Source: Nitrosospira multiformis | GTDB lineage: Bacteria; Pseudomonadota; Gammaproteobacteria; Burkholderiales; Nitrosomonadaceae | Direction of reading: 5' to 3' | Length of the DNA: 64,000 nucleotides | Assembly (NCBI RefSeq): GCF_900103165.1 | Contig: NZ_FNKY01000001.1 | Span: forward strand, 2,232,001 to 2,296,000 | Part shown: in pieces, positions 13,668 to 45,657 of the stretch | Numbering within the stretch: the stretch's first letter is position 1 | How the letters are laid out: the number at the start of each line of letters is the position of its first letter | The notes under the pieces: generated by a model | What the model was told of the DNA's origin: nothing | The model's input: only the letters and a program-made list of their open reading frames with translations | The model's database searches: none | Translations under genes and position numbers: made by a program

Positions 13668-13689
13668 GGATTCTCCTCTGCGGGGCAAT

Positions 13690-22309: not shown

Positions 22310-22376
22310 GTGTTCCTCCGTTCATGGTTCCCTTCATTCGCTATCGCACTGTTTCAGACTGGCGCTCCATCACAAA

Positions 22377-22861: not shown

Positions 22862-22892
22862 GAAAACTCCTTTAGTCTTGAATAAGCTTATC

Positions 22893-22917: not shown

Positions 22918-23092
22918 CTAACGGCTGTCAATGATAATCTCCAGCATGTTCTCATCTTAATGAAAAGGAGTGGGGCGTGAAAAGGCCCATTAACGGGCCG
23001 GGCGGGCATCAGCCCCTTGGTGTCCATGAGCCGGATTTTGCATGGATCCGCCAGTGGCATGTACGAATGGTAGTCCGCATTACACCGCTTTT

Positions 23093-23920
23093 TCACAGCT
23101 TCTTTGTGATAGCGGCCGAACCGAGCTGGCCAAGCAGGCTCCCGAGCCCCGCAGCCCCCAACGCTGAATTCTGGTTCGCTTGCCGCCACGCATCGAGTTG
23201 CCCCTGGTATTGCCCCAGCCCCAGATTGCCGGCGGACGCATTTGCGCTGGTTGCACCGCCAAACCAGTTTTGCGCGGCATTCATCCCCGCGTTGTGCAGT
23301 TCCGCGCCCGTCGCGATATTGCCGGTGGCGGAGTTGGCGGCATTAAGCGCTGCGGCATCGGCGGCAAGCCCCGTGTTCGGCATGTTGCGCCCGAATTTCG
23401 CCGCCCCTTCGCGCATTGCCATGCCCTGCAATTCCGTATCTCGCCGCGCCTTATTCATTGCGCCGGCAGTATCCCTGGCCAGCCCGAGGTTGATATCCTG
23501 CGTCAATGCCTGGAATCTGCCCGAGTTCGGGTTGACGCCCAATCGCTCCAGCGCCCGCTGGTTCGACTCCAGCGCTCCCTGATAGCCGCGCGAGACATCC
23601 GCCGCCGCTTCCCCGGCCATTCTTTCCTGGCGGCCGGGGGAGTCGAATTCGCTGGCATCCCCGACCATGCGCGCTTCCAGCGGGGCGAAAAGATCGCGAT
23701 AGATTTGCCACTGCGATTCGGCACGGCCGGCATTGGCATCGCCCAGGGCAATCTGCTGGTCGACGATTTTTTCCATCAGGGGATCCTGCCTTGCGGCGCG
23801 ATTTTTCTCCCAGGCCAGCTGATCGCGCGCGACCCCGGCCATTTCCCTGGCGAGTTCCGCGTTGGACATGGCGGCCTGGCCGATAAGCGGATCGGGTTTC
23901 GGCGGTTTTGCGCTACACAT
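23093..23920 (-). CDS. Putative internal/ejection virion protein
   Basis: A 275-residue Ala/Gln/Asn-rich protein. The N-terminal helix-rich half (NAELAREMAGVARDQLAWEK, about 19-38) is followed by repeated Ala/Asn-rich helical turns, with a Gly-rich C-terminus (GAAGLGSLLGQLGS) that could be amphipathic. Such proteins in short-tailed phages are packaged inside the head and injected with DNA. A partial, degraded second copy of its first 165 codons lies immediately upstream and is fused to the neighbouring gene. The start overlaps the remnant GNAT tail, exactly as the original junction must have looked. Confidence 0.65.
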   Translation of the reverse strand: MCSAKPPKPDPLIGQAAMSNAELAREMAGVARDQLAWEKNRAARQDPLMEKIVDQQIALGDANAGRAESQWQIYRDLFAPLEARMVGDASEFDSPGRQERMAGEAAADVSRGYQGALESNQRALERLGVNPNSGRFQALTQDINLGLARDTAGAMNKARRDTELQGMAMREGAAKFGRNMPNTGLAADAAALNAANSATGNIATGAELHNAGMNAAQNWFGGATSANASAGNLGLGQYQGQLDAWRQANQNSALGAAGLGSLLGQLGSAAITKKL

Positions 23921-24530
23921 TTTCGACCTCCAGTATTTTGGTTAAACCATTCTCGACATGACAGTACCCGGAAGCCGGAAGAATCTTCCAGCCTTGTCCA
24001 CTGTCTTCACCGAAATATTGATTTCGCTGATTCCCAGCAAAAATTCCGTATCACGCCGCGCCTTGTTCGCTGCGCCGGCGGTACTTGGCAGGCCCAGGCT
24101 GATACCCGTCTCCATGCCTGGAATCTGCCGAGTTCGGGTTGACGCCCAACCGCCCTAGTGCCCGCTGGTTCGACTCCAGCGCGCCATGAGAACCACGCGA
24201 GACATCCGCCGCCGCTTCTCCGGCCCTTCTTTCCTTGCGTTCGGCGGAGTCGAATCCGCTGGCATCCTCGACCAGCGCGCTACCAGCGGGGCGCGATTTT
24301 TCTCCGAGGCCCGCTGATCGCGCGCGACCCCGGCCATTTCCCTGACGAGTGCCGCGTTGCGCATGGCGGCCTGGCCGGTAAGGGGACCGGGTTCCGGCAG
24401 TTTTGCGCTACACTTTTCGACCTCCAGTATTTTGGTTAAACCATTTTCCACATGACGGTAGCCCAGAAGCCGGAAGAACCTTTCCGCCTTGTTCACCGTC
24501 TTCACGGAAATATTGATTTCGCTGACTCCC
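23430..24530 (-). repeat. Tandem duplication of about 0.6 kb inside the prophage
   Basis: Unit 1 is 23430-24037 and unit 2 is 24042-24530. Both contain the 5' part of the virion gene and the 3' end of the acetyltransferase gene. For example, the CCTCCAGTATTTTGGTTAAA stretch occurs at 23927 and 24421. Unit 2 lacks about 120 bp inside the virion-gene part and has many substitutions, so it is the decayed copy for that gene. For the acetyltransferase end, unit 2 is the working copy. DNA between 24042 and 24154 is therefore remnant. Confidence 0.9.
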
Positions 24531-25027
24531 AGCAACCGCATTGCATTCTCGACATACGCCACAAAACAGTTTGCAACCCGGCCCTTGCGTGCCTCCGGTA
24601 ACAGATAAAGCGTGTCTTCCGTGGCGATGAGTGTTTGCGTATGTGCGCTTTTGTCCAGGTACAGGGCGCAGTTACCCAATAATCGCATTTCGCTTCTCAG
24701 CGTGAAAAGCACGTAGCGCCCCGCACGCTCGTAGCGGATGAATGTGTCGTAATCCGGGTTGAAGGGCAGCTCATGCCGGTATTCTTCGGTTTCAGCCCAA
24801 TGCGCCCGGTGCAGGGGTTCGATTTCATCGGTAATGCCTTCAATGCGCTCAACAGAAAAAACAAGGCCTCCGTGCCGTGCCGGTTCGATCTGTTGAATAT
24901 CTTCTGCAGGTACCAAGGTGGCAAGATGGTCTGCGGCGAGACAGATGTCGGCCGCCAGTTCGGGCGTGAGAGGCAGGCCCAGGTTATCCTTAAGGAGTGC
25001 AAGCAATTGATGATTGGTCATGGTCAT
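24155..25027 (-). CDS. GNAT-like phage protein fused to a degraded copy of its neighbour
   Basis: Residues 1 to about 203 form the original protein. An N-terminal helical part is followed by a GNAT-like domain with SAHTQTLIATEDTLYLLPEA, EINISVKTVNKAERFFRLLG and a final GYRHVENGLTKILEVE. Such proteins occur among virion genes of several podoviruses; their acetyl acceptor is unknown. The last 87 residues are the translated remnant of a duplicated virion-gene start. One base (an A on the plus strand, between 24413 and 24414) is missing relative to the second copy, which destroys the normal stop and joins the two. The gene overlaps the upstream stop by one base. Confidence 0.75.
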   Translation of the reverse strand: MTMTNHQLLALLKDNLGLPLTPELAADICLAADHLATLVPAEDIQQIEPARHGGLVFSVERIEGITDEIEPLHRAHWAETEEYRHELPFNPDYDTFIRYERAGRYVLFTLRSEMRLLGNCALYLDKSAHTQTLIATEDTLYLLPEARKGRVANCFVAYVENAMRLLGVSEINISVKTVNKAERFFRLLGYRHVENGLTKILEVEKCSAKLPEPGPLTGQAAMRNAALVREMAGVARDQRASEKNRAPLVARWSRMPADSTPPNARKEGPEKRRRMSRVVLMARWSRTSGH

Positions 25028-25803
25028 TAGCTATCCAGTCTCGCAAGAATATTTTCAACCGATGCACGTATATCATTGGTGTAAGCGTAAAGCGCCTCAC
25101 ATTCCGCCTGGGTCGGGGCTGCCGAGAAGGTTAATGTTTGAAATTCAGGCACCTCGATCGCGTTACCCCGCCGTCCGATGACAATTTCCAAAAGGGTCTT
25201 GAGCCATTCCGGCGTTCCGGCAGGTATGCCCGGCTTCTTGACACGGATGATTCTGTCCATGCCGGTCATGAGACCGGGTTCTAAAACCGTTCCGATTTGA
25301 GCGATTACACCCGTTCCGCCAGGATTCACCTGCATCGATGGCGCGGCCGCCAGATTCCCGCTGCTGAGGCTCATTGCGCCAGCCTCGCCCGGATTGGCCT
25401 GCGCGGATGCCGCTCCGGTCAGTACATGGATTTGCGTAACAGCGACAGCGGTTGATGGATTGACCTGCATCGATGCAGAAACAGCCAGCACATGGGGCTG
25501 ATCTATGGCTGCCACGCTGCTGACATCGGCCTGAGCGGCGTTGGCGGCAACGAGATCATTGACTGCGCTCAGTGTGATAGCGCCGGTGCTGCCGGCATTT
25601 ACCTGGATCGAACCCGCTGCGGCAAACGCATGCGCCTGGGTTATCCCCGCCGTGCCGCTGGTGTTAGCCTGGGCGGAGTTCGCACCGGATAGGCTGTGTC
25701 CGGTGGACACCGTTTCATTAACGAATGCGCCACCGGGTATCTGTGCTTGCCGCGTGCCGGTTTCGTTAACGAAAGGCCCGCCCGGTATCTGCCGTTGGGT
25801 CAT
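25027..25803 (-). CDS. Repeat-rich phage structural protein
   Basis: A 258-residue protein. It starts with two copies of a PGG-x-FVNET motif (residues 7-15 and 22-30), then about seven imperfect repeats of 20-24 residues with the pattern AxS/AxQ(A/V)N followed by Gly/Ala and a hydrophobic pair (about 38-170). The C-terminal 80 residues are a different, helical domain. Regular small-residue repeats of this kind suggest an elongated beta-solenoid or fibre. It lies directly after a beta-helix protein (zero gap). No enzyme motif is seen; the role is probably tail or head fibre assembly. Confidence 0.65.
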   Translation of the reverse strand: MTQRQIPGGPFVNETGTRQAQIPGGAFVNETVSTGHSLSGANSAQANTSGTAGITQAHAFAAAGSIQVNAGSTGAITLSAVNDLVAANAAQADVSSVAAIDQPHVLAVSASMQVNPSTAVAVTQIHVLTGAASAQANPGEAGAMSLSSGNLAAAPSMQVNPGGTGVIAQIGTVLEPGLMTGMDRIIRVKKPGIPAGTPEWLKTLLEIVIGRRGNAIEVPEFQTLTFSAAPTQAECEALYAYTNDIRASVENILARLDS

Positions 25804-27132
25804 CTATGCGACCGTTAAGAGCGGATCGGCGTATACCGTATAGCTTGCCTTGCCCATGCACACGTGCGCATGAAGGTAACCTTTCTCTTGCGGGGTGAAT
25901 GTCACCGATAGTTTCTGTTTGTTCGGGTTTGCCAGGCCGGCCGTTGTCCATGTGACCGAACTTGACGACTGCGCAGCCGCCGAGGCCAGAACATCCGATT
26001 TTGAGTCGCTGATTATTGAACCCAGCGGGAATCCCGAGGTTCCCAAGTACTGGACTTCCAGCCACACCTCATCGTCATTCAGCGCGGCCGTGCCGTCATG
26101 GACAATCTCAACCGTTGCGGTTAGTGGACTTCCGACAGTATCGTTCCAACGCACAATCTCCGGCGTGCAAAACCGGCCCGATAAAAAATTGCAATTTGCC
26201 GTACTCGTCAGCTTCCACGACAGCGAGGTCGTGCCATCGCTCGCGCCGCCAGACCTGACTATCATCGTTTCCTGAATCAAATCTCCGGCGAAGTCTGATA
26301 TCCATATCCGGTAATTCGTATCGGTTGCATCGCAGTTGTACATTGCCGCTCTGAACGTTGCCACTCTGGTACCTGTTGCGAGCAGGCCGGACCACGAAGC
26401 GGGTAGCTTGCAGTTGATAAAGATGATATCCAGACCATTCGCTATCAGGCACAGATTCGCAGTAGAGGAAAGGCCGGACAGATCAACATTCTTCACAATC
26501 GCGGTGGCGGCACTCGCGACCGCGTTCGTAAACAACGACGTTATATCCGTGCCTCCGGCAACGATGCTTCCGCCGTCCCACTCAAAGAATCCGCCATTGA
26601 CGGATATTGCTTGACTCGCATGTGCGAATTTAACTGTGCAGTCTTTCCACCTCACAGTAGCAATGGTGGAACCCGAAGCGTTTACGGCATATATACGATT
26701 GCCGCTGGACGAACCCCCGAGCCGGAAACTGCAATTTTCGTAAAATTGAGAATCCCCTCCTGCATTGCCAAGACGGAAAATGGCGCTGCTGGCGCCGTTT
26801 CCCGCCGTGAAGACAATCCCGTAAAAACGGGCATGTCCACTAATATTTATGTCACTTGCACCCGTAGTGGATAGTGTTGCGGTAGCGGCTAGCGAAGCAG
26901 GCGGCTCTGCCGCATCGTTGCCGCACAGCACCTGTACCGGATTGGAGATCGTTCCTGCAAGCGTGATTGTCTGCGCGGTGGCCGGGGCTTCGGCATGCGC
27001 CTGAGACAGAAATATCCTGTCTCCAGCGGTATCCACAGCCGCAACCCCGGCGAGTGTCGCTTTGGCTAACGGCCATGTTGCGCCGCTATCCCCATCACTG
27101 CCATCGGCAGACCTGACGTAACGGTCTGTCAT
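25804..27132 (-). CDS. Beta-helix-type phage structural protein
   Basis: A 442-residue protein with short, regularly spaced hydrophobic and Asn/Gly turns from about 70 to 330 (for example SDINISGHARFYGIVFTAGN), typical of a right-handed parallel beta-helix. The C-terminal 110 residues look like a separate beta-sandwich, perhaps for trimer formation or attachment. Likely a tail appendage or decoration protein. The start overlaps the preceding gene by four bases (ATGA). No polysaccharide lyase or hydrolase active site was recognised. Confidence 0.65.
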   Translation of the reverse strand: MTDRYVRSADGSDGDSGATWPLAKATLAGVAAVDTAGDRIFLSQAHAEAPATAQTITLAGTISNPVQVLCGNDAAEPPASLAATATLSTTGASDINISGHARFYGIVFTAGNGASSAIFRLGNAGGDSQFYENCSFRLGGSSSGNRIYAVNASGSTIATVRWKDCTVKFAHASQAISVNGGFFEWDGGSIVAGGTDITSLFTNAVASAATAIVKNVDLSGLSSTANLCLIANGLDIIFINCKLPASWSGLLATGTRVATFRAAMYNCDATDTNYRIWISDFAGDLIQETMIVRSGGASDGTTSLSWKLTSTANCNFLSGRFCTPEIVRWNDTVGSPLTATVEIVHDGTAALNDDEVWLEVQYLGTSGFPLGSIISDSKSDVLASAAAQSSSSVTWTTAGLANPNKQKLSVTFTPQEKGYLHAHVCMGKASYTVYADPLLTVA

Positions 27133-27311
27133 GCGACACCTGTCATCGCAGGGCGAGCGGCAGGCACTCCATCCGTATCCAGCCCGATAGCGGCGAGATG
27201 CTCGTGCCCATGCGCAACCCCCGGGTAACCGGTATGGCGCTCACGAGCTCGTGTGCGACCATCATCAACCTGTACCGATGACGGGATGACCCGGCTAGCT
27301 ATGGTCTGCAT
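27129..27311 (-). CDS. Small phage protein
   Basis: A 60-residue polar protein with several His and Arg. It starts two bases after the previous stop and overlaps the next gene by ATGA, so its translation is coupled on both sides. This packing is the main reason to accept it. The function is unknown. Confidence 0.55.
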   Translation of the reverse strand: MQTIASRVIPSSVQVDDGRTRARERHTGYPGVAHGHEHLAAIGLDTDGVPAARPAMTGVA

Positions 27312-27313
27312 GG

Positions 27314-27697
27314 CTATGTCGGCTGATTGCTGGTGTAAGTGAGTGCCGGAAAGTTGACCGTGTTGCCGCTGGTCACCACCTGATCGCTGGTTTCATCCGT
27401 CACCCAGAGCACCTTGCTCACGTTATCGGTGAAGGCAATGTGCAGGTCCGGTGTTGCGCCCGAGTTTGCGGATGCCGTGCCGCTCTTCGCGCCCGTCGTG
27501 CAGACGCGCGGGTTATTGGCCGAGCCTGACAACGTATAGTCGCCGGAAGCCATCGTGACCGTACAAACCGCATTTGCGACGACCGTGGCGTAACTGTCTC
27601 CCGCCGTATAGGCCTTGATCAGGATCATGCGGATAGCATTGTTCCTGATTGCGTTCAACCCGCCGTCAAGAACATCGGAATGTGCCCATTTAGCCAT
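27314..27697 (-). CDS. Phage structural protein, beta-rich
   Basis: A 127-residue protein starting MAKWAHSDVLDGGLNAIRNN, a beginning seen in small virion proteins next to tail genes. The middle is Ser/Thr/Ala/Gly-rich beta-structure and the end is an LTYTSNQPT tail. It follows a terminator hairpin and a GGGGG ribosome site, so it begins a sub-operon of four or five genes. The function is probably structural. Confidence 0.65.
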   Translation of the reverse strand: MAKWAHSDVLDGGLNAIRNNAIRMILIKAYTAGDSYATVVANAVCTVTMASGDYTLSGSANNPRVCTTGAKSGTASANSGATPDLHIAFTDNVSKVLWVTDETSDQVVTSGNTVNFPALTYTSNQPT

Positions 27698-27843: not shown

Positions 27844-29880
27844 TCAAGCCTGCTTCAGCCCATCCATGCTCTCAGCGAGTACCACTCCCGTCACTTTCAC
27901 ATTACCGGATAATGCAATCTCCACGTTATCGGACTTGTAGCCGCCCGGGAGCCGGAAAGCACGGCAGTTCTCGACCTGCCTGGTAAACTTCAGCACGCCA
28001 TCCGCCCACAACTGGAATTGCAGCGAGTCAATGGAGAGGGGCGGAATCGCCTGCATTTCATCACCGTCAATCTCGTATTCGCCCAGGTAAGGATCGGCAA
28101 TTCCGTCATTCATTATGCCGGCGGCAACAAGCGCCTGGTTTGCGGCAATCGCGGCGGCATATGATGCGCTGGCGGAGCCGGATTCCTCCTCCGTCATCTC
28201 GAAATCCGCATCGACCTTGGCCGCGCCGTAGTTCAGCGGCGGCTGGCTGATAAACCTCTTGCTCTTCCATTCATAGCCAAGCTTGGTGCCCGCATCCCCT
28301 TCCCATCGGTATATCTTTTTATCCGCCGCCACGTAGAGTTTGCCGGTCCATGGATCTGCCCATATGGCAGTTATTTTCTGGTTCACCTTGACGAATGACG
28401 CGTTCTCGGCCTTATCAATCACGAACATGAGCGAGCTGTCGTCAGCGGTGTAGCCAGCGTAATACCGGTTATCGGCGGATGCGGCAATGAATGTTTCGGG
28501 GTTGAGCTCAGCCCACTCTTTCTGCGTGAACAGGTCCTTGGTAACGATGTCCGTATTCATTCCGGCGATCACCAGCCCTTGCGGCGCCGGGTATCCTACG
28601 CCGAACGCGAAACTCGCCATGCCGCGCTTTGCCATGCACGGCCACGCCACGCCCAGCTTTTCCATACCGCCGCCCATGGTCATAGGCTCAACGCCGGTGA
28701 TGGTGAAAGGGTTGCCCCGGGTCATGCCTACCAGGGTCGTGCCGGCGATCCCTATTGCAATGATGTCCTGATCGTAGGTTTGACGATAGGCGGCCGGCCA
28801 TGCGTAAGGCTTGAACGGTTCCGAAAAATGCACCTCGTTTCCGGTGAAGCCGGCTGCAATCCCGTTTGCCAGAATGACAATGCCCTTCATGCCGGCTGGC
28901 GGCATGGCCCAGGACGCGGAGGGAAGCACTTCTCCCAGTGCGGCATTGGTATCGGAGGTCGTATCGTTGTATGTCGAGGTTATGGCAGTGAGGGTGGCAA
29001 TGTAGTGGTACTCGGTGCCCGCCGGGGTCGTCAGCGTGCGGTAAATCCGCTTGTTCATCCCGATGGTATTGTGTGGCGCCATGCGTGCCCAGGTGCCGCC
29101 TGCAATAAAAGTTTGAGTGGTCGAGAGCGATACGGCTACCTTGCGTGTTGCGGGGTCCACGCTCACGAGGATGAATGTGGCGTTGAGGTCCGTCATGCCG
29201 GTCACAGCCGCAAACGTGACGGTTTCACCAGCGCGCAATCCAAAAACTGAATCAAGCGTCACCTGGGCATATCCGGCCGACGGCGTATCCTTCACCGCGG
29301 CTGATACCGCACCGGAATTCGGCGGCGCGGCATCCATGGCGGTCAGCGCCCAGGTAGCGTCAACCTTTCCGGTTGTGACAATCGAAGGGGGAGATGGCGC
29401 AGACTCTTCTCCCCATTGCGTAACGAAAGTATAAACGTAGGAGCGGGTAACACTGGCCCCCGCACCGCCGGAAGGTGTCACGGCCGCCGCGGTAACCGGG
29501 GGCGTCACCCCCAGCACATAGCAACCGGACGGATAAGGCCCGGCACCCACGGTCGCCATGTCGTAATCCGATGCACGCGGCTCGCCGTCGCCGGTGTAAT
29601 AGAACCGTCTGGCGGTATTGCCGGCAACAGGGGAACGCGCCACATCCACATCCTTATCCCATGCCAGCCATTTTTCGTTACCATCCTTCTCCATGCGAAA
29701 CATGGACTTTATGTCATTACCGATGACGGGCGAGAATACATGCAGCGGGCCATTCCCTGGGCGCAGGTCGCCGGATGTCAGGTTGCAGTTCGTCGCAACC
29801 TGCGCCTGATTCGGCGCAAGCAACTGCTTTGCCAGCCTTGGCACAAGCCCGGAAAACCCGGCGATTCTGAATGCGGTCAT
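27844..29880 (-). CDS. Large phage tail/neck structural protein
   Basis: A 678-residue protein. The N-terminal FSGLVPRLAKQLLAPNQAQVATNCNL stretch is reminiscent of the start of tail tubular or nozzle proteins of podoviruses (T7 gp12-like), which also begin with an 'acquired-and-named' Cys/Asn motif. The centre has beta-sandwich-like domains (YTFVTQWGEESAPSPP, Ig-like, about 150-165), then beta-propeller-like repeats (about 380-530). The C-terminus carries another beta-domain. A tail tube or stabilisation role is inferred from size, place and style only. Confidence 0.6.
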   Translation of the reverse strand: MTAFRIAGFSGLVPRLAKQLLAPNQAQVATNCNLTSGDLRPGNGPLHVFSPVIGNDIKSMFRMEKDGNEKWLAWDKDVDVARSPVAGNTARRFYYTGDGEPRASDYDMATVGAGPYPSGCYVLGVTPPVTAAAVTPSGGAGASVTRSYVYTFVTQWGEESAPSPPSIVTTGKVDATWALTAMDAAPPNSGAVSAAVKDTPSAGYAQVTLDSVFGLRAGETVTFAAVTGMTDLNATFILVSVDPATRKVAVSLSTTQTFIAGGTWARMAPHNTIGMNKRIYRTLTTPAGTEYHYIATLTAITSTYNDTTSDTNAALGEVLPSASWAMPPAGMKGIVILANGIAAGFTGNEVHFSEPFKPYAWPAAYRQTYDQDIIAIGIAGTTLVGMTRGNPFTITGVEPMTMGGGMEKLGVAWPCMAKRGMASFAFGVGYPAPQGLVIAGMNTDIVTKDLFTQKEWAELNPETFIAASADNRYYAGYTADDSSLMFVIDKAENASFVKVNQKITAIWADPWTGKLYVAADKKIYRWEGDAGTKLGYEWKSKRFISQPPLNYGAAKVDADFEMTEEESGSASASYAAAIAANQALVAAGIMNDGIADPYLGEYEIDGDEMQAIPPLSIDSLQFQLWADGVLKFTRQVENCRAFRLPGGYKSDNVEIALSGNVKVTGVVLAESMDGLKQA

Positions 29881-29934: not shown

Positions 29935-30483
29935 TCAGCCACTGGATTCGGAATTCATGCCACCCAATGATTGGAGCGATTTTTTCCCCTCGCATATGGC
30001 TCGTTCCTCCGCTCGTCTTTTTACCAGGCCCGGCAATACTTTCCTGCCTGGTCCGTATTTGAACGCCTCGATGCGCTTGCAGGCTTCCGCATAGTTCCCG
30101 GCGTTGATCAGATCAATCAGATTGGGCGGCTTCCCCGGCTTTGCCTTCTTGCAGAATGTGCCGACGCCGATGTTATAGGCGAGCGACACATACGCCTCAT
30201 ACTCATGCTGATACAGCGGCGCGGTCACGCACTTTTTCACCCCGGCTGCGTAGACGCCCTCGACTTCGTCGAGCAATCGCACCAGCGAGCGTGTGGGCGT
30301 GGTTCTGTCACCCATCCTGACACCGGCGGTCGTTCCAAAGCCGATAGTGGGCACATCGCCGGGTGCGGGGATATAGGCCTCGTCCTTGTAGTCTTCATGC
30401 AAGGCGATCCCGACGAGGGTCGACGCCGCCAGTACCATGACCGCAATCGTGGAACGAACCTGCGTGGGAGACGGATTAATCAT
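29935..30483 (-). CDS. Phage lysozyme (GH24), SAR-type endolysin
   Basis: A 182-residue muramidase. The catalytic Glu30 of the GH24 family lies in LHEDYKDEAYIPAPGDVPTIGFG with Asp and Thr at the right spacing (E-8x-D/C-5x-T type). A weakly hydrophobic N-terminal segment (about 12-28, rich in Ala, Ser, Thr and Gly) fits a signal-arrest-release anchor rather than a cleaved signal. It cuts peptidoglycan at the end of infection. The start overlaps the previous gene by four bases. The C-terminus extends by a polar tail. Confidence 0.88.
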   Translation of the reverse strand: MINPSPTQVRSTIAVMVLAASTLVGIALHEDYKDEAYIPAPGDVPTIGFGTTAGVRMGDRTTPTRSLVRLLDEVEGVYAAGVKKCVTAPLYQHEYEAYVSLAYNIGVGTFCKKAKPGKPPNLIDLINAGNYAEACKRIEAFKYGPGRKVLPGLVKRRAEERAICEGKKSLQSLGGMNSESSG

Positions 30484-31556: not shown

Positions 31557-31885
31557 GTCTTGCCCTCCCCTTGCAATAGCTTTTGTTGTGTTGCCACGAA
31601 TAATGCCTCCTGCATCTGTTGCGACTGCGCGCTCCGCTTCACCATTTCATTGCGGAATGACTCGGTGGCCGCCGCCCCCTTGCGTGATTCGTTGGCCGTA
31701 TTGATCATCAACGCGGGCATCCAGGCAATGGCGCAGCCCCAGTTGCCGGTTTCCTCGCCGGTATTCATATCGACCCCGCGTACCTGCACATACCAGGGGC
31801 AGCGGTAAAGCATGGGTTTTCCCGCCTCGATCTTGATCTCCTCGCACTTTGCCCCAAGCGGACAATCGGCAATCCGGGTCTCCAT
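31547..31885 (-). CDS. Hypothetical phage protein
   Basis: A 112-residue protein with four Cys in the N-terminal half (CPLGAKC, RCPWY, WGCAIAW), possibly a metal site or disulfides, then a helical Gln-rich tail. It overlaps the fibre gene stop by one base. I do not recognise a family function. Confidence 0.6.
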   Translation of the reverse strand: METRIADCPLGAKCEEIKIEAGKPMLYRCPWYVQVRGVDMNTGEETGNWGCAIAWMPALMINTANESRKGAAATESFRNEMVKRSAQSQQMQEALFVATQQKLLQGEGKTCE

Positions 31886-32787
31886 TAATTCTTGCTCGCT
31901 AGGATCATGTCGATATATTGCACAGCAAGGTTAATGGCGGTACCCGTGAATGCATGATTATGGGAACCACCGCCACCGGTACCTCCATCTGTCGATGGGG
32001 TTCCCTGTACGGACCCCCCGCTACCCCCACTAGGGTTCGCCCCTGCGCCAGCAGTGTTATACACAGGCAGTCCATGCGTATGCCAGGGTATTTGGGCCGC
32101 CGTCAGTGTCGTTGCACTATTCGAACCGGTAACCGGCTGCAAGGCGAAAGCGCTGGTAAACGCCACCGATCCGCCCGATCCGCCCCCTGTCCCGCCGACG
32201 ATCCGCATTGCCTTGTTGTGGTGCGTGGTTACCTGCGTCCAGCCGACGGGTGCCGCAGCCTGAAAAAATGCCATGACAGTGCCGGATGGAATCAGCGTAG
32301 CCGCGGCAGCCCCCAGCGTCGTACGCGCCGCCACCGCATCCGTATCATCCAGCAAGGTTCTGGCAAACTCGCTCAGGCTGGTCAGCGCGGCGGCGCCCGC
32401 ACCGGAAAAGTACGGCAGAGTATCGGCGGATGACGCAAGCCCGCCCAGGGCGATGAGGTTGGTATTGGATAATGACTCTTCCAGCGCCGCGCGGGTGATG
32501 CCCGCTACAAAATAATCGCCTGCCGCCCAGGTTCTGGCCGTGGTGCCGTCCAGTCCGCGTCCGCCTGCGGCGATGGTGAAGCTGTCAATGCTGCGGATGT
32601 CGATTTTCACGATTTCCCGGTTACCGGAAGCATCCTTGAAGGTTCCATAGAAATAATCGCCCGCACCGAGTACCGGAAAGAAAATACCTTTACCCGCCTC
32701 CACCGTGAAGTTCAAGCCTGCCGTTCCATCTGGGGCGGAACCGACTTTCGCCTTGCCGAAATTTGAAAACTTGAGTCCCATTCCCAT
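31885..32787 (-). CDS. Phage tail fibre with collar-type C-terminus
   Basis: A 300-residue protein. The N-terminal part is a small beta domain that includes [15 protein letters not shown] and a repeated DYFYG/DYFVAG pattern. The middle [11 protein letters not shown] and ARTTLGAA segments are typical of tail-fibre shafts. The C-terminal third is the tail-collar-type receptor domain: [20 protein letters not shown], then His-containing turns ([18 protein letters not shown]) that bind metal along a trimer axis, ending [12 protein letters not shown]. It likely binds the host surface. A Gly-rich loop (GTGGGSGG) may be variable between phages. Confidence 0.85.
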
Positions 32788-32799: not shown

Positions 32800-33423
32800 T
32801 TATCTTCTGGCCATGATCGTGGTTCGCAGCGGAGCACGCGTGTAGCTTCTGGCCACGCGCATGCCCGCCGCCGCCGTGCTGATGCCGAATTGCCGCTGGT
32901 GGTGGGTGGCGAGTTGCGCATTGGTATAGGGCTTTTCAGGCGAAAGCATAAGCTGCGCCAAGGCGCCATGAATAATGGATTCCCGGAATTCATTGAATAA
33001 CGCATCGTCGATTCCCGTGCTGCTTGCGGATGGTTTGAGGGCTACCACCATAGTCAGGATTCCGGCCGTATCGGGGATCGGCACCAGTGTGGCCGCCGTT
33101 GCACCGCCCAGAACATAGAGCGGCGTACCTGACTGATTGCGCCAGTTCCAGACGGTTATGCCGGATTCTCCCGCATGGGTCTCGATTTCCTCTCCATTCA
33201 GTACCGCATGGGTAACGCAATGCACGGCGGCGCCCGCCGGTGGAAGGAAGGCGTACTCCGCTGTTCCGGCTATTACCGGGATATCGGGATGATTAAACCG
33301 CCAGGCCAGCGATTGTTCGCAAAACACCATGGCTGATTGACGCAGGGCGTTATCAACCATCACGAACGGGCAACCCGGCAGACCCGGCATGACCAGGTCA
33401 TAAAAATCACTCCATGGCTTCAT
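32800..33423 (-). CDS. Head-tail adaptor-like phage protein
   Basis: A 207-residue protein with a helical N-terminus, a beta-sandwich insert (about 48-130, PVIAGTAEYAFLPPAG) and C-terminal helices (DDALFNEFRESIIHGALAQL). This helix-sandwich-helix plan is that of tail adaptor or tubular-A proteins of short-tailed phages. The start overlaps the previous stop by four bases. The role is inferred from plan and place. Confidence 0.65.
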   Translation of the reverse strand: MKPWSDFYDLVMPGLPGCPFVMVDNALRQSAMVFCEQSLAWRFNHPDIPVIAGTAEYAFLPPAGAAVHCVTHAVLNGEEIETHAGESGITVWNWRNQSGTPLYVLGGATAATLVPIPDTAGILTMVVALKPSASSTGIDDALFNEFRESIIHGALAQLMLSPEKPYTNAQLATHHQRQFGISTAAAGMRVARSYTRAPLRTTIMARR

Positions 33424-38300: not shown

Positions 38301-39572
38301 TTAAAGAGAAACGACGGAATCGACCGCAATTACGCCGAAGTCGGTCGGTACCTTCGTGCCGGTACCATCATTGATCGACAGGCGTACTTTGCCCTTGCCG
38401 CATACCCGCTCACCCATGACCTCCAGATTGCTCTCAAAGTTGTACCAGTGTTCCTTCCAGCCGAACTGCATGCCGCTGACCCCTGTTTTGCCGTAAGCCA
38501 CCCCAAGTGCTTGCGCACCCAGCAAAAGGCCGCGCTCGACGGCATAACCGGCGCTCAGCGAGGCGTTGATGGCCTGGTCGGTTTCGGCTGCGGTCGCCGC
38601 ATTGGCGGCGGTGACGACTTTTGTGTTTTCGCCGGGCAGAAAACGAATGGCCCGCTCGTTTTTTATTACCAGAATACCGTTCCACATGCCGGCCTCACCG
38701 GCAAACAACGGATGGCGGGTATCCAGATAGGCGGCGCGATTCACGGCATTCTGCTGGAATGCCCGCAGAGAGCCTTCGGCCAGCAATATCGAATACTGGT
38801 TCGGCGTGGCGAGAAATACCCACATTTTCGACGTCTGTGCAGCCCGGTCGCCGGCAAGCTTTACTGACTGCAAGGGCTGGTCCATGTCGTCCAACCGCTT
38901 GCGCAGATTGTCCAGATGCATCAATTTGAATTGATCGGTGGAAACGATGGACCCCAATTGCTGCCCACCGGCGGTGAGATTGGCGCCGTTCACCACGAAA
39001 TGCCGGTTATAGGTCGGTGCCTTGACCGGGTTTACCATAACCGAAGCGAAATTGGCGCTGCTCTGGAGCGGTATCGCCCAATCCGTGCCGATCTGCGACC
39101 CGCGCGAGCCCGCCAGATGCACCAGCGATTCCTGCGTATCGAAGCGCGGGAAATAACCGGATAGCTGCGCCAGCGCGATCTCACGCAGGTTATGCTTGGT
39201 GCGTTGCTGCGACATGCTGCCGCCCGCATCGATCACCTTGCTCGCCAGATCGATCTTGATTTCCATCGAAGAAAATGACAGCGTGTCGCCCTTGCCTTCG
39301 CGATTGATATCTCCCATCAACGGTTCTCCGCTGACGGTATCGACCAGATCGAGCGTAACGATATCACCGGCATTTTTCATCAGATTGTCGATCCTGACGA
39401 TCGGCATGCCCGGTTGCGTCTGCCCGGCGATCTTCTCCATCGCGGCGGATGGTTCCACCGGCCCAGCCAGATTCTCCATCGCCGATGCGCCCTTCAGGGT
39501 ATTGGCAAAAAGTGCGGCGCTATAATGTTTCACCGCAATCGAGCTGCCGCTTGCTACATTAGTTTCAGCCAT
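38301..39572 (-). CDS. Major capsid protein, N4-gp56 family
   Basis: A 423-residue protein with the family pattern: SSIAVKHYSAALFANTL near the start, the GDIVTLDLVD strand, a KVIDAGGSMSQQRTKHNLRE segment where the helix-rich spine would be, and a C-terminal ALGVAYGKTG...FGWKEHWYNFE region. HK97-fold capsid proteins of this group form the icosahedral shell of N4-like and related podoviruses. It follows the scaffold gene by 11 bp. Size is normal for the family. Confidence 0.88.
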   Translation of the reverse strand: MAETNVASGSSIAVKHYSAALFANTLKGASAMENLAGPVEPSAAMEKIAGQTQPGMPIVRIDNLMKNAGDIVTLDLVDTVSGEPLMGDINREGKGDTLSFSSMEIKIDLASKVIDAGGSMSQQRTKHNLREIALAQLSGYFPRFDTQESLVHLAGSRGSQIGTDWAIPLQSSANFASVMVNPVKAPTYNRHFVVNGANLTAGGQQLGSIVSTDQFKLMHLDNLRKRLDDMDQPLQSVKLAGDRAAQTSKMWVFLATPNQYSILLAEGSLRAFQQNAVNRAAYLDTRHPLFAGEAGMWNGILVIKNERAIRFLPGENTKVVTAANAATAAETDQAINASLSAGYAVERGLLLGAQALGVAYGKTGVSGMQFGWKEHWYNFESNLEVMGERVCGKGKVRLSINDGTGTKVPTDFGVIAVDSVVSL

Positions 39573-41003: not shown

Positions 41004-42863
41004 CTATTGCTGCGTGGCAGCCTGGAATGGTTGGCGCATGACGGGTGCTTGCTGGTCCTCTTCAACTACACCACCCGCCCTGCGTAACTGATCAGCCAGC
41101 TCATGCCGGTTCGGCACATCGGACAGTTCCAGCATGGCCGGATACAGCACGGCCTGGTATGCAGGCGGTGCCGCCTGCACGATCTGGGTGAAAGCTTGCA
41201 GCTGCTGTGCCCTGAAACTCGGCGTAGCCGGTATGTCTTCCAGCACGACCCTGACCTGGGCGGTCTCGATATCGTTCTCGATCACAGGGCCGGAATGGGT
41301 CATGACTTCGCGGTTGAAATAAACCGTCCTCTGTTTGTTGCCCCGCTTCACCGCTATGGCCGTCTGCCTGCCCAGTAAGTCGTACTTGATGAATGCCAGA
41401 AGCTGTTGTCCCACCAGCCGCCGGGCATAGCGGAAATTATCGTTGGGTTCCGCCAGTACGGTGGAGCCCTGCTCCACCAGATTGTTGATGGCAACACCGC
41501 TCGCGGCCTGCGTCGATGCGCCGAGCATTGCCCGGTACACGCCGCTCACCGCTTCAATCCTGTGCTTGCGCTCTTCCACCAGTTGGAACACCTGCGCGGC
41601 CAGCGCATGCTCGCGCGTCACCTTGAATCCGCCCGCATTCCTGCGCTGGGCATTCAGAACGGTCATCGAGCGCAGGCTGCTGATGTTGTGCGCAACCTCC
41701 TGATAGGTATTCTGGCTCAAATCGAGCGCATCGTTATCCACCTCGACTTTTACCGAATTCAGGACTTCATACAGCAAAATATCCAGATCGAGGATCTGAT
41801 CCTGCGGCCCCCGCATATCGCGGATCAATCCATACGGTACCCGGCTGCGGTCCTTGCGGAAGCACCAGAACGGGACATAGGGAAAATCACGATGCGGCAG
41901 CGGGCTGGGTACATCCATTAATTTGTGCGGTCCCAGCCAGATTGCCACGCGCATTCTCGGCAGCATGGATCTCTGAACGTGCACCAGGCCAGCGCTGAGT
42001 GCTGCCTCATGGTAGGGATTATCTTCGCGGTATTCAATCGCCTTGCCGTCGGGCAATACCAGAACGTAGGCATCCTCGAAATGCCGGTACCACAGCTCGG
42101 ATAAACGTACCATGCCCGAGTTGCGGTTGAGGTAATCCTCCTGGCTATGTCCCCACGTCTGGCCCCATGCCTGCTCGATTTCGTATGCTCTGGCCATGCC
42201 CGTATCGGCACCATCGTATACGTCCAGATTATTCCAGCCGTTCCAGCTATTACCGATAAGCGCCTGCTGTTCCGGAAACATCCTCGCAGCCTGCGCACGG
42301 TCAACCCACTTATCGCGTCGTAAATAACGCGCGTCCGATAGATCCGGCTCCTTCGACGTCCAGTCCCACCAGATTTCGTTGCGATGAATCTCCCGCACCC
42401 GGTACGGATACCTGAGCGGATCGAATTCGCGTGAGACCTCAACCCATCCGACTCCTGCCCGGATCATGCTGGAATAAGCGTCAGACATTGCCCTGTCCGC
42501 CCTGGATTCCGCTTCGACCTCCTTGATTTTCGCAGAGAGCCCCTCGGCAATCTCGGCCTGCTGCTCATCGTCGGACGTGATCTTGTAATCCGTGCGGCTG
42601 CGCGCCTCGATCCCCAGCACGGCATTGATGGTCGGCTTGATCAGATTCGAATCCTGCGGTGGAATACCCGCCTCTTTCAGGCGCCGGATTACCTCGACGC
42701 TGGTCTGCGCGCCGTCGTAATAATCGCAATCCGTATCCGAATCCAGACGCCACTTCGGCTGATTGCGAATATCCCGGCAGATCCCGCTGTATGCCTCGAC
42801 TGATATGTCTGACGCTATGTCCGCCATATCCACTGTGTCCACCCTGCCGGTATCCAGGATCAT
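41004..42863 (-). CDS. Portal protein, P22-like
   Basis: A 619-residue portal protein. Features include an N-terminal clip/stem build-up with SNLIKPTINAVLGIEARSRT (about 72-91), a central KDRSRVPYGLIRDMRGPQDQ region with the conserved portal helix, and a Gln-rich helical C-terminus like the P22 barrel. The dodecamer forms the DNA entry channel and the joint for the tail. The start overlaps the terminase large gene by four bases. Full length, no disruption. Confidence 0.88.
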   Translation of the reverse strand: MILDTGRVDTVDMADIASDISVEAYSGICRDIRNQPKWRLDSDTDCDYYDGAQTSVEVIRRLKEAGIPPQDSNLIKPTINAVLGIEARSRTDYKITSDDEQQAEIAEGLSAKIKEVEAESRADRAMSDAYSSMIRAGVGWVEVSREFDPLRYPYRVREIHRNEIWWDWTSKEPDLSDARYLRRDKWVDRAQAARMFPEQQALIGNSWNGWNNLDVYDGADTGMARAYEIEQAWGQTWGHSQEDYLNRNSGMVRLSELWYRHFEDAYVLVLPDGKAIEYREDNPYHEAALSAGLVHVQRSMLPRMRVAIWLGPHKLMDVPSPLPHRDFPYVPFWCFRKDRSRVPYGLIRDMRGPQDQILDLDILLYEVLNSVKVEVDNDALDLSQNTYQEVAHNISSLRSMTVLNAQRRNAGGFKVTREHALAAQVFQLVEERKHRIEAVSGVYRAMLGASTQAASGVAINNLVEQGSTVLAEPNDNFRYARRLVGQQLLAFIKYDLLGRQTAIAVKRGNKQRTVYFNREVMTHSGPVIENDIETAQVRVVLEDIPATPSFRAQQLQAFTQIVQAAPPAYQAVLYPAMLELSDVPNRHELADQLRRAGGVVEEDQQAPVMRQPFQAATQQ

Positions 42864-44113
42864 GCGCGCCAGCCTTTCATGCTGATGCCGCGCGCACTAC
42901 CGGCCGGCTTGTCGTCTTCGGTGGACACGGCAAAGTAGCGGAATGCGTCCGCGGCATGGCTATGGTGATCGTGCAGCGGCCTGCCACTGAGCTGCCTTGT
43001 GGCCGGATCGACATCGAACCGGTAATGCCGCAGGCTCTGCAGTCCTTCCGCACACTTCGCTTCATCGAAATAACAACGGTTGAATATCGTTCTGGCGGCA
43101 TTGATGCCATCGGAAATCGAAAGATTCGGCACTATCCTCACCTTGCGCCCGGCCGCGATCATGATTTCCTCCACGCTTCGACCCGTGGCCAGCGTTTTGG
43201 CCCTGGCATCGTGCGGCAGCCAATCCATGCCATATAAATATCCCCTATCCTGCAGCACATTGATGTAATGTTGTATTGGCATCTGATTGTTGCTGTAATA
43301 ATCGATTAATCTGAGTTCGCCGCCGACAGTTTGCGCAAACCATATGCTGGTGTTGTCCGCCCAGCCCAGATCGAAGAACGTATGCACCGGTTTTGCGGCG
43401 TCGTAAGGTACATGCCTGATACGGCCTTCTTCCTGGGCCAGCCTCAACTCCCTGGCGTAAATCGCACCGTCCAGCGTCACACGGCAATGACCCTCCCAGA
43501 CATTCAAGTACGCGTCGGGATCCCTGATTTTCAAGTCGTCCTTCTCGCGCAGCAACGTATCCGGAAACCACGGATTGTCATTCCAGTTAATCTTTACAAC
43601 AACCGCTCCCGCCGGCGGATTGATAACAAACCGCTGATGCGTTTCGTCGGTCTCCAGCTCCGGGTTGTAGGTCACCCAGATTTCCGAACCTTGCTTGCGG
43701 ACAGTGGGAACAAGCGTGTCCCAGCTTGGCTTGCTTACCGCCTGAGCTTCTTCCACCCAGACCCGGTCAATGCCCTCGAACGACTTTATCCGGGTGATGT
43801 TGTTACGCAACCCGGCAAACAGGAATTCGGAGCCGTTTCTACCCAGAATGATGTTGTTCTGCACCTCGTAAAATGATTCCAGGCCGATTTCAACAATCTG
43901 GGACTGCAACAAGTGATGCACCGACTCGGTGATTGAATTCTGAAACTCACGTGCGCAGAGTATGCGCAGCGGTGCGGCGGCGGCTTGTATCAGCAATGCC
44001 CTGGCCACACTCCATGACTTTGCGCCGCCACGGCCGCCATATAAAATCTTGTACCTTGCCGCTTCGAACAGAAATCGGAGTTTTTCAGGAAATTCCGCCC
44101 TGTGCGCGGTCAT
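42860..44113 (-). CDS. terL: Terminase large subunit, PBSX family
   Basis: A 417-residue packaging motor. The ATPase has Walker A GGRGGAKS (26-33) and Walker B VWVEEAQAV. The nuclease domain has an acidic FFDLGWADN motif near 240 and an Asp in HDHHSHAADAFRYF near 385. It cuts concatemeric DNA and pumps it into the procapsid. The short, PBSX-type form fits headful packaging, which is typical with P22-like portals. It follows terS by 42 bp. Confidence 0.93.
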   Translation of the reverse strand: MTAHRAEFPEKLRFLFEAARYKILYGGRGGAKSWSVARALLIQAAAAPLRILCAREFQNSITESVHHLLQSQIVEIGLESFYEVQNNIILGRNGSEFLFAGLRNNITRIKSFEGIDRVWVEEAQAVSKPSWDTLVPTVRKQGSEIWVTYNPELETDETHQRFVINPPAGAVVVKINWNDNPWFPDTLLREKDDLKIRDPDAYLNVWEGHCRVTLDGAIYARELRLAQEEGRIRHVPYDAAKPVHTFFDLGWADNTSIWFAQTVGGELRLIDYYSNNQMPIQHYINVLQDRGYLYGMDWLPHDARAKTLATGRSVEEIMIAAGRKVRIVPNLSISDGINAARTIFNRCYFDEAKCAEGLQSLRHYRFDVDPATRQLSGRPLHDHHSHAADAFRYFAVSTEDDKPAGSARGISMKGWRA

Positions 44114-44155: not shown

Positions 44156-44668
44156 CTACTTGCCGGCGGCAAGCATTGCGACAAAGGCTACTTCGACCTT
44201 ATGCACAATCGGCTTGCCCGTATCGCCGTCTTCTCGCGTATTCAGCAATTTGTCGCCGTATTTCTTGGGCGCGAGCCTCGCCGCATACCACTTGCGTGCG
44301 TCGATACGCAGCTGGGAGCGTGCGATAACCTCGCGGTTCATCACTTCTTTTCCCTTCTCGTCGGTATAGGTATCTTTTGACCCGTCATCCGAAATTTCTA
44401 TGATTTCTTCGGCATAGGCATCCACGCAAAGCTCCTTCGCACGCAGGTATTGCTGCATGAGCGCCGCATCGCTCGCCAGCCAGTTCCATAAGACCCGTTG
44501 ACTGATGCCAGTCTCCACACACATCGCCCGTGCCGATTTTCCCAGCGAAATACCGGTACAGATTGCGTCCACCAGTTCACGGGTTTTTATGGTCGGAGCC
44601 CCTCTTTTGCCGTTTGGGGCCGCGTTTATCGGTTCCTTCGCTTTTTTCCGGAGTCTATGCTCATTCAT
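44156..44668 (-). CDS. terS: Terminase small subunit
   Basis: A 170-residue DNA-recognition subunit. The N-terminal third has a basic segment followed by a helix-turn-helix (about 35-65, SARAMCVETGISQRVLWNWL). The middle is a coiled-coil oligomerisation part (about 70-130), and RSQLRIDARKWYAARLAPKKYGDKL is typical of this family. It overlaps the Rz1 gene by eight bases. Confidence 0.88.
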   Translation of the reverse strand: MNEHRLRKKAKEPINAAPNGKRGAPTIKTRELVDAICTGISLGKSARAMCVETGISQRVLWNWLASDAALMQQYLRAKELCVDAYAEEIIEISDDGSKDTYTDEKGKEVMNREVIARSQLRIDARKWYAARLAPKKYGDKLLNTREDGDTGKPIVHKVEVAFVAMLAAGK

Positions 44669-44966
44669 GATCTGATTCTTTTAGCGGCAGACTGTTGCAC
44701 CCCTTTACCGCCGCAAGCAATTTAATCTCGCATGCCCAGCGTTCTTCTATTTCGGCACGCAGCGCACGATTAATAGTCAAGGAGTCATCCTTTGCGGATA
44801 TGCGATCAACCGCGTAAGCTGATTTGCACTCTGCCGGTGTTTCAACCTGGCATAAAACGGCAACCGGCTTTTCGACCACCTGTGTCTGAATGACAGGTTT
44901 GCCTGCGCAACCACTCACCATTAATGCAAATAATGGCATCGCCACGAGGCTAATGTGATAAGTCAT
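44661..44966 (-). CDS. Rz1-like outer-membrane spanin lipoprotein
   Basis: A 101-residue lipoprotein (lipobox ALMVSGC, Cys20) with several more Cys and a mixed-charge tail. It begins out of frame inside the 3' end of the Rz gene (overlap 44950-44966), the classical Rz/Rz1 overlap. Start 44966 gives a good lipoprotein signal; the frame extends seven codons further without support. With Rz it fuses the membranes at lysis. Confidence 0.8.
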   Translation of the reverse strand: MTYHISLVAMPLFALMVSGCAGKPVIQTQVVEKPVAVLCQVETPAECKSAYAVDRISAKDDSLTINRALRAEIEERWACEIKLLAAVKGCNSLPLKESDHE

Positions 44967-45351
44967 GGCGTTGGCGGCTTTGCACATACTGTATTTGTTC
45001 CGTATTTATCATCTCGCATTGTTTGCCAGGTGTCGCTGCCGGAACTGGCCGAAGAGAGCGTATTTTTTTTGCGTTGCCGGTATGTGTCGCCGCAGCGATT
45101 GCGGCTCCGCGCATCGCCTTGATCGCATCTTTTTCTCTTTTAGCGGTGGCTACTGTCAGTGCCTCCAGCGCCATGCGTACGGACTGAATATCAGTAGCGC
45201 ATCTATCATTTGCCGCCGATAACATTGCATTGTTGGTATTAAGCCGCTGTATCTGTGCTGCCGTTCGCCAGTCGCTAAGTGCGAACCCGCCACCGAAGGC
45301 AAGCGCGGCAAGGACGGCAATCACTATTGCTGTAATCGCTGGACTAATCAT
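44950..45351 (-). CDS. Rz-like inner-membrane spanin
   Basis: A 133-residue protein with one N-terminal membrane anchor (about 5-25, AITAIVIAVLAALAFGGGFA), a periplasmic coiled coil with SDWRTAAQIQRLNTNNA and a basic end. Single anchor plus coil, and an overlapping lipoprotein gene in another frame, identify an i-spanin. It is the first gene of the late operon, downstream of the hairpin array. Placing spanins ahead of the terminase genes, 14 kb from the endolysin, is unusual. Confidence 0.82.
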   Translation of the reverse strand: MISPAITAIVIAVLAALAFGGGFALSDWRTAAQIQRLNTNNAMLSAANDRCATDIQSVRMALEALTVATAKREKDAIKAMRGAAIAAATHTGNAKKIRSLRPVPAATPGKQCEMINTEQIQYVQSRQRHDLSH

Positions 45352-45365: not shown

Positions 45366-45587
45366 AAAAGAACCCCGCTCTGGGGCAGAAATAAAAAACC
45401 CGCGCATGGCGGGGCAGACAAGGAAAACCGCACGAAGCGGTTTCTGGATACAAGGCAAAAAAATACCCGCATAAGCGGGTTTGGGTGCTACATAAACGCC
45501 CACACGGGGCAGGCAACAAAAAGCCCGTTTTGAACGGGCGGATAAGTGGATAAGCGGAAAATAAAAAACTCGCCTGAAGCGAGTTTT
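45366..45587 (-). terminator. Array of seven tandem hairpins, most terminator-like
   Basis: On the minus strand, in order of transcription: AAACTCGC/GCGAGTTT (45566-45586, T-run), GCCCGTT/AACGGGC (45523-45539, T-run), a weak GCCC/GGGC (45498-45510), ACCCGC/GCGGGT (45465-45480, seven Ts), AAACCGC/GCGGTTT (45425-45443, four Ts), CCCGC/GCGGG (45399-45413, six Ts) and CCCC/GGGG (45373-45385, T-rich). The stems differ in sequence, so this is not a simple repeat. No long reading frame here looks coding. Confidence 0.75.
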
Positions 45588-45589
45588 GA

Positions 45590-45657
45590 ATATTGTGTTT
45601 GGACACAAAAATCCACAATATAGATGCGTATTATATAGCGTTACCGGCATTTGTCAA
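45590..45657 (-). promoter_or_regulatory. Perfect-consensus sigma70 promoter with palindrome at the start site
   Basis: TTGACA (45652-45657) and TATAAT (45630-45635) are exact consensus with a 16-bp spacer, reading leftward. Transcription would begin near 45623, at an inverted repeat ATATTGTG/CACAATAT (45590-45597 and 45614-45621) that contains a nested TTTG/CAAA. This could bind a repressor or shape the 5' end of the RNA. It drives the hairpin array and Rz. Confidence 0.75.

Follow-up and report, generated by a model that had tools for sequence, protein, structure and literature searches.

Why should a promoter of perfect consensus sequence fire straight into a stack of transcription terminators placed immediately before a set of late phage genes? 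The question is raised by a short leader in a genome of Nitrosospira multiformis, a Nitrosospira-type ammonia oxidiser whose close relatives are Nitrosospira and Nitrosovibrio; the window analysed here is the whole stretch of 64,000 nucleotides that contains this leader. An earlier note had argued that a promoter running into terminators needs an antiterminator acting in trans (or a processing enzyme), a claim now supported by a conserved element in the promoter spacer, by a candidate protein with an AlpA/Q fold, and by the pairing of such a protein with a promoter and terminators in a prophage relative. We conclude that the leader is very probably the late-gene control leader of a split, domesticated and vertically inherited prophage, whose circuit would consist of a repressor, a Q/AlpA-type antiterminator and a terminator-gated late operon.

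In the window, TTGACA (45657-45652) and TATAAT (45635-45630) are separated by 16 bases on the minus strand, exactly as the earlier note had read them, and together form the sole 12/12 consensus promoter between positions 40000 and 50000, a region without enrichment in promoter-like matches (4 observed vs 7.9 expected). The -35 hexamer (45652..45657) is the same in 21/21 genomes and the -10 hexamer (45630..45635) is exact in 19/21. Between them lies the hexamer GTAACG (45639..45644, minus strand, approximately -21 to -16), also exact in 19/21, which we propose as the binding element of a Q/AlpA-type antiterminator. Across the 21 genomes these six spacer bases are conserved almost as strongly as the promoter hexamers themselves, with 1.86 bits per column as compared with 2.0 for the -35 and 1.93 for the -10, the corresponding values being 0.73 for the first seven spacer bases, 1.58 for the 20 bases 3' of the -10 and 0.32 upstream of the promoter. 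The composite pattern TTGACA-N7-GTAACG-N3-TATAAT, with at most two mismatches, is found at exactly one place per genome in 21/23 genomes, and its reversed control gives three matches across all 23; in the two genomes without a match (G106 and G108) the contigs start inside the spanin genes, i.e., at contig edges.

Downstream of this promoter, the minus strand is predicted to form seven non-overlapping hairpins between 45587 and 45372, each with a GC-rich stem and a T-rich tail, before the first late gene, which starts at 45351. Hairpins 1 (45565..45587), 2 (45523..45539), 4 (45465..45480) and 6 (45399..45413) carry an uninterrupted T-run of at least five, while the T tails of hairpins 3 (45497..45515), 5 (45424..45444) and 7 (45372..45386) are weak, with runs of 3-4, in agreement with the seven hairpins, at least four of them with such a run, that had been described before. 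Folding of the 272-nt leader, suggested along with that description, gave z = -6.4 relative to 200 shuffles. How many hairpins are counted depends on the rule applied; under a stricter one requiring at least four G-C pairs, the window leader has seven sense and no antisense terminators, as compared with a mean of 0.23 and a maximum of 2 in 100 dinucleotide shuffles. Between two and seven sense-strand terminators are predicted in each of the 21 readable leaders (69 sense vs 12 antisense in total), with shuffle means of 0.08-0.29 and the observed number equalled by a shuffle only in G105 and G112, once per 100 each. As a background, 854 kb taken from elsewhere in these 22 genomes and searched on both strands contained 449 single terminators, 36 that begin a pair and two that begin a triple within 260 nt, and no 260-nt stretch with more than three. 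The stack is therefore real, but seven is not its general size: the number and sequence of terminators vary by lineage, from two to seven with the window genome at the extreme, while the promoter block is nearly frozen.

The search for similar leaders beside related terminases, which had also been proposed, did recover stacks, yet among 106 loci related by their large terminase subunit (TerL) four or more terminators per 260 nt occur only in three Nitrosospira copies (L083, L084 and L100, on the operon strand only); besides the seven of the window, the leader of G096 has five. When IMG/VR was searched for terminators paired in tandem in one exact layout, 20 contigs emerged, none with more than two terminators in 260 nt, and relatives of the leader in public phages were limited to four short matches (30-43 nt of the query, E 0.1-0.3). 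Two trivial identities could be set aside. A known RNA family was rejected, as Rfam has no match at the array, and so was a dispersed repeat family, the case that would have disconnected the region from the phage genes, as the leader is present in one copy in its genome, plus one 24-nt match. The sole Rfam match of the window is unrelated, a chrB-b RNA motif (RF03086) at 13704-13752 on the minus strand, upstream of a 461-aa ORF (12303-13688).

Stacked terminators would also be suitable for insulation, protecting dangerous genes from stray transcription while another promoter or activator switches on the late operon, and free variation in size from two to seven is what would be expected of redundant stops. 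However, in 21/21 readable leaders the stack is preceded by a consensus promoter that is better conserved than any other block of the region, the six conserved bases of its spacer are dispensable for sigma-70, and a Q/AlpA-fold protein is conserved alongside it and directly paired with such a promoter in the prophage relative described below. We consider insulation improbable.

A further conserved block covers the start site (45611..45625, minus strand), reading ATCTATATTGTGGAT in the window and ATCCATATTGTGGAT in most relatives of the leader alignment, i.e., ATCCA-N5-TGGAT in the latter, with ATCTA in the window. The inverted repeat previously noted at the expected start is present (ATATTGTG/CACAATAT at 45590-45597 and 45614-45621), but its exact form is unique to the window among 20 aligned leaders, and the block that is conserved is a different one. 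Inside the latter, the -10-like hexamer TATATT (45622-45617, minus strand) is proposed as a sigma-dependent pause element; counted from the predicted start, positions of about +2 to +7 read CATATT or TATATT, an imperfect element with A at the second position in 21/21 leaders and the final T in 16/21, and in prophage-type leaders a hand count gives TAGTAT or TAGTGT at this place. A regulon of the start-site motif CCATATTGTGGAT was sought and rejected: seven places in the genome match with at most one mismatch, including the leader itself, as against one for the reversed control, and no convincing second target emerged.

In phage HK022, it is the put leader RNA that makes polymerase ignore stops. 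A similar RNA could in principle replace a protein here, given the conservation of the 20 bases after the -10 (1.58 bits per column) and a start-site block that can pair, but the dyad at the start site is no longer intact in G103 and G109 and is imperfect in the window as well, no Rfam family is matched, a dedicated antiterminator-fold gene is present, and the spacer element is conserved though untranscribed, all of which makes a put-like mechanism very unlikely.

The cluster following the leader encodes spanin-like, terminase, portal, capsid, adaptor, tail fibre, endolysin and internal virion proteins, all on the minus strand. Its first gene (44950..45351) is i-spanin-like (PHROG 739, Rz-like spanin, E 0.00093; PHROG 3774, without function, E 0.00021) and is overlapped by a second (44661..44987; PHROG 3580, no named function) that we read, from its position and lipobox-like start, as an o-spanin-like lipoprotein. 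These are followed by an Sf6-like terminase small subunit (44156..44668; PF20901, PHROG 1482), TerL (42860..44113; PF04466, PHROG 3717), a P22-like portal (41004..42863; PF16510, PHROG 156), the major capsid protein (38301..39572; PF13252, PHROG 334), an SU10-type head-tail adaptor (32800..33423; PF24175), a tail-fibre-like protein (31885..32787; PHROG 8469), an endolysin-like protein (29935..30483; PHROG 7) and an internal virion protein (27844..29880; PHROG 511). The remaining distal genes (21500..27697), whose conserved extent gives the approximate end of the cluster, comprise a virion structural gene (23093-23920) and unknowns. Beside this distal end lies a ParE/Phd-type toxin-antitoxin pair (20317-20918, minus strand), absent from the stretches compared in 21 other genomes (four of which end early) and so perhaps a recent arrival.

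The late genes are a feature of the whole genus: TerL has an open frame in 23/23 genomes, the best copy in the other 22 being 80-96% identical, and in the family outside the genus it is matched in 2/102 genomes at 37-38% identity. When the window genes were compared with stretches of up to 40 kb from 21 genomes (G108 was left out, and those of G101, G103, G106 and G111 are cut short), the order of the core late genes was the same, with variation in the presence or place of a 227-aa ORF, a 426-aa ORF and the beta-helix ORFs. The two beta-helix genes of the window (34207-36946, minus strand) have no match in 10/21 other genomes and lie elsewhere in most of the rest; they are a variable and possibly receptor-binding part of the particle. 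The surroundings are shared as well: including the window genome (G000), g198 (45812-46408, plus strand) is beside the promoter in 20/22 genomes, an FAD-binding oxidase gene (PF01565) is upstream in 17/22, and a Wzy_C gene (PF04932) is past the far end of the cluster in 15/22, the seven genomes without it being four with shortened stretches and three (G097, G113 and G115) without shortening. From these common neighbours we read the late cluster as occupying one chromosomal site.

Three genes upstream of the late promoter deserve a word of their own. The gene g198, divergent from the promoter, is 38-78% identical among genomes, has no Pfam or PHROG match, and may belong to the element. A Bor-like lipoprotein gene (PF06291; 50086-50493, plus strand) is upstream of the promoter in most genomes; Bor is a lambda prophage gene, so that this neighbour may also be phage-derived. 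Between the two lies a 1155-aa GMC oxidoreductase-hydrolase fusion (46561-50028, plus strand) that is unmatched in the compared stretches of the 21 other genomes.

The phylogeny of the late genes is consistent with vertical inheritance. A tree of TerL, portal, terminase small subunit and capsid from 21 genomes has 12/18 splits in common with that of rpoB; 9/10 rpoB splits with support of at least 95 recur in it, 9/12 such element splits are present in the rpoB tree, and there is no conflict at 95/95. Pairwise distances of element and rpoB are likewise correlated (r = 0.96, Spearman 0.87, 0/4999 permutations as high). When 22 element copies of TerL were placed in one tree with 16 copies from prophages or viruses, 15 of these 16 fell on one side of a split with support 95; a metagenomic contig that bears the element's promoter (L022) groups among the element copies. 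The ten late genes measured are under purifying selection (dN/dS 0.06-0.21), the medians, taken at saturated dS, being 0.058 for TerL, 0.065 for the capsid, 0.100 for the portal, 0.107 for the endolysin-like protein and 0.20-0.21 for the spanins, as compared with 0.097 for the FAD oxidase. Second TerL copies, 42-80% identical, are present beside the domesticated element in G103, G110, G113 and G114.

An ordinary prophage would be one contiguous element flanked by attachment repeats and equipped with an integrase, which is not what is found at the late cluster. No integrase, excisionase or replication family was detected in the 27 ORFs scanned, and the longest word common to both ends is 11 bp (E 0.43). 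Although PF00589 genes exist somewhere in all 23 genomes, in all five genomes with a complete list of such matches none is in the late cluster or beside the Q-like gene described below; the G000 matches closest to the late cluster are more than 300 kb from it, and in G094 and G113 an integrase remnant is located in host DNA between the cluster and the Q-like gene. The absence of a nearby integrase, together with the loss of two early genes in one clade (G097-G101), would also fit a cryptic prophage in decay, with a leader that now serves no function. We regard this as highly improbable, given a TerL frame open in 23/23 genomes, dN/dS of 0.06-0.21 at saturated dS, a promoter kept almost to the base, and a Q-like gene and repressor retained in 22/22 cassettes. 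What the earlier note had called a phage late operon thus does consist of late phage genes but belongs, as far as sequence can tell, to a vertically inherited, domesticated part of a prophage, split and genus-wide, and not to a phage or an ordinary prophage.

A candidate for the factor acting in trans came from a second, fuller prophage of the same lineage in Nitrosospira sp. Nsp11 (L097, contig C24 of G113, to which the second TerL copy of that genome belongs). Its genes for a primosomal protein, a helicase-loader-like protein, a C-5 methylase, RusA, NinB and an HNH protein are followed by one for an unnamed 165-aa protein (hereafter Q-like) and then by a promoter (TTGACT-17-TATCAT), two terminators and the lysis genes, with the integrase 24 kb further upstream. 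This is a lambdoid gene order with the unnamed protein at the place of Q. An alignment profile of the Q-like protein retrieved one credible solved structure, AlpA (E = 0.0013; next 0.11). An AlphaFold model (pLDDT 82.7) matched AlpA with Z scores of 15.8 and 15.0, lambda Q with 9.1 and the next row with 6.3; since unrelated helical proteins may, according to the tool, score as high as Z 13, the weight lies on the AlpA match, and that to lambda Q is supporting only. Foldseek with the same model gave AlpA at E 2e-4 and nothing else below 0.001. The structure modelled is that of the prophage protein, to which the orthologue of the window genome is 70% identical. The classical Q families PF06530 and PF03589 are each found in 0/23 genomes, and PHROGs and Pfam give the protein no name, although with VIA-align a family missing from its listing could still exist. 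On the basis of the modelled fold, the Q-like protein is a strong candidate for an antiterminator of AlpA/Q type.

Outside the element, only L097 and its IMG/VR copy L025 combine a Q-like gene, a good promoter and terminators. In the viral contig L034 the gene (67-69% identical) precedes a -35, a spacer block reading GGTACA, a -10 of poor match and a terminator, while L029 and L033 have a promoter of the type TTGAC-N8-GGTACATGATT-TATCAT and one terminator, with no Q-like match in their available DNA. The GTA of the genus-wide spacer element recurs at the same distance from the -35 in L097/L025 and L034, whereas L029 and L033 have it one base further away. No such leader was seen within 700 nt after the gene in L036/L080 (53-56% identical), nor a recognisable copy within the same distance at homologues of 30-37% (L030, L031, L032, L038, L039, L042 and L044), and a pattern search of viral contigs for more homologues returned only the known prophage.

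Within the genus, orthologues of the Q-like protein, 61-73% identical to that of the prophage, are present in 22/23 genomes, the exception (G108) being 80% complete. In G000 the gene lies outside the window (C1:2404578-2405072). Coordinates compared by hand place it on the same strand as the late promoter and 49-133 kb upstream in 15/15 genomes where both are on one contig; in seven genomes they are on different contigs. Its dN/dS is 0.146 and its distances track those of rpoB (r = 0.91, 0/1999 permutations).

The Q-like gene closes an early-type operon divergent from a Cro/CI-type repressor gene (PF01381), and the repressor, the Q-like gene and three small neighbours are present in 22/22 cassettes read. 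DUF1376 (primosomal-type) and DUF6475 (weakly helicase-loader-like) genes occur in 17/22 and are both absent in G097-G101; the 27 late-cluster ORFs scanned gave no replication family, but primosomal-type genes persist in this separate cassette. Three ACAAG-N5-CTTG operators are located between repressor and early operon in 22/22 cassettes, and an extra copy lies about 1.5-3 kb away before a 77-aa gene, p77a, again in 22/22 (in L258, about 4.67 kb before the Q-like gene), making p77a a possible antirepressor gene or other target of the repressor. The Q-like gene is overlapped at its start by a small Cys-rich ORF (L258:9070-9315, minus strand), matched in 18/22 genomes with dN/dS 0.33 and possibly encoding a partner of the antiterminator. 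The repressor is itself under purifying selection (dN/dS 0.193), and a domain search found no recognised peptidase or autocleavage domain in it, so that self-cleavage as in lambda is not indicated.

This arrangement can be compared with three known systems. The lambda pR'/Q leader consists of a promoter with a binding element in its spacer, a -10-like pause element and a terminator, with lysis genes coming first in the operon. The Nitrosospira leader has its parts in the same order, the binding and pause elements being putative, and also places lysis genes first (pR'/Q is summarised in PMC9371919). The logic of repressor, operators, early operon and Q is also that of lambda, and the Q-like fold resembles lambda Q (Z 9.1); unlike in lambda, there is no match to a Pfam Q family, the Q-like gene is 49-133 kb from its promoter, several terminators are stacked, and no infectious phage is inferred for the element.

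A second parallel is AlpA, described in the available parts of two papers as the Pseudomonas aeruginosa antiterminator of the alpBCDE lysis operon, with the motif GGGACG-N5-GGTA and with one predicted terminator at alpB and two at PA0807 (PMC7969949, PMC9371919). As far as these descriptions go, both systems have a sigma-70 promoter with an element (here putative) between -35 and -10, one or more terminators before a lysis-type operon, and a repressor-controlled antiterminator gene, and the model of the Q-like protein has the AlpA fold (Z 15.8). They differ in the number of terminators (2-7 here vs one or two), in the sequence and register of the element, in the phage structural parts encoded by the Nitrosospira operon, and in its repressor without recognised autocleavage domain. 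The spacer element is in the same zone as the published AlpA motif but has another sequence and register. Reading GGTA in the spacer as an AlpA half-site was rejected, because the AlpA motif runs from -25 as against about -21 to -16 here and some of the genomes lack the first G.

The gene transfer agent of Caulobacter crescentus (CcGTA) offers the third comparison: its antiterminator GafZ, with a putative element between -35 and -10, is reported to have no similarity to Q or AlpA (PMC11150451). In both cases a phage-derived particle cluster is opened, in Nitrosospira by prediction, by a repressor-controlled antiterminator encoded elsewhere. By the same account (PMC11150451), the CcGTA terminator sits after the first gene, unlike in the Nitrosospira leader; a GafY/IHF tier has no known counterpart in Nitrosospira; and a 14-kb alphaproteobacterial cluster is to be set against a 24-kb cluster of P22-portal type in Betaproteobacteria.

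The precedent of AlpA, as far as described in the accessible text (PMC7969949), together with the conserved spacer block and the CATATT/TATATT hexamer, leads us to read the array as a lock opened by the Q-like protein. Anatomy, conservation, fold and co-occurrence are what was observed; from them we infer that the hairpins terminate transcription, that the Q-like protein binds and lets polymerase read through, that relief of repression induces the operon and that particles are formed. Sigma-70 RNA polymerase would start at the late promoter and be halted by the hairpin stack, which would hold a lethal operon of lysis and particle genes tightly silent in most cells. Once the repressor leaves its operators, the Q/AlpA-type protein would be made, bind to the element in the spacer during a pause of polymerase shortly after the start, and travel with the enzyme through the hairpins, switching on the 24-kb gene cluster.

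A phage-like particle is the most likely product, plausibly a gene transfer agent, as the locus combines a phage structural cluster, vertical inheritance, a fixed site and purifying selection on particle genes, and the absence of an integrase close by in the five genomes listed in full also fits. The same switch could also serve a killing or defective-phage particle, the type represented by PBSX. The anatomy would fit either, with terminase, portal, capsid, tail and lysis genes all there, and receptor specificity is conceivable for the variable beta-helix genes (34207-36946); on the other hand, the occurrence of the cluster throughout the genus and the strong constraint on its terminase and portal suggest that DNA packaging is under selection. 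A PBSX-like particle is in our view on the improbable side, though a serious possibility. As a bolder proposal, held tentatively and put at somewhat below an even chance, Nitrosospira and Nitrosovibrio may carry a genus-wide gene transfer agent derived from a phage of P22-portal type, the first in ammonia-oxidising or betaproteobacterial bacteria in the literature searched. Its lambda-like circuit would be intact, with an early half (repressor, three operators and Q/AlpA-type antiterminator) and a late half (terminator-gated particle operon) kept apart by some 50-130 kb of host chromosome since before the radiation of the genus, and the terminator stack would be an evolvable lock setting the rarity of lysis commitment. 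No description of a gene transfer agent in Nitrosospira was found in the literature covered, whose scope lay outside most subscription journals and all preprints.

The original paper on cadmium induction of a prophage in N. multiformis is reportedly that of Choi and others, 2010. According to a review, prophage in N. multiformis 25196 is inducible by cadmium (PMC9502458), and in the accessible portions of the N. briensis C-128 genome paper phage is mentioned only with regard to CRISPR. The switch proposed here could account for this reported induction, and the explanation is testable. Antitermination of a domesticated phage cluster has already been described, in the text at hand, for Caulobacter GafZ (PMC11150451); a second case, with an unrelated antiterminator of Q/AlpA fold, would point to terminator gating as a recurrent way of taming lethal particle operons. 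Two to seven terminators behind one conserved promoter represent a natural experiment on how tight such a lock needs to be, and the orthologous antiterminator-promoter pair, small and present in some 20 species, is usable for biochemistry. If the proposal is true, it would provide a candidate route of gene exchange for ammonia-oxidising bacteria, which are central to soil nitrification.
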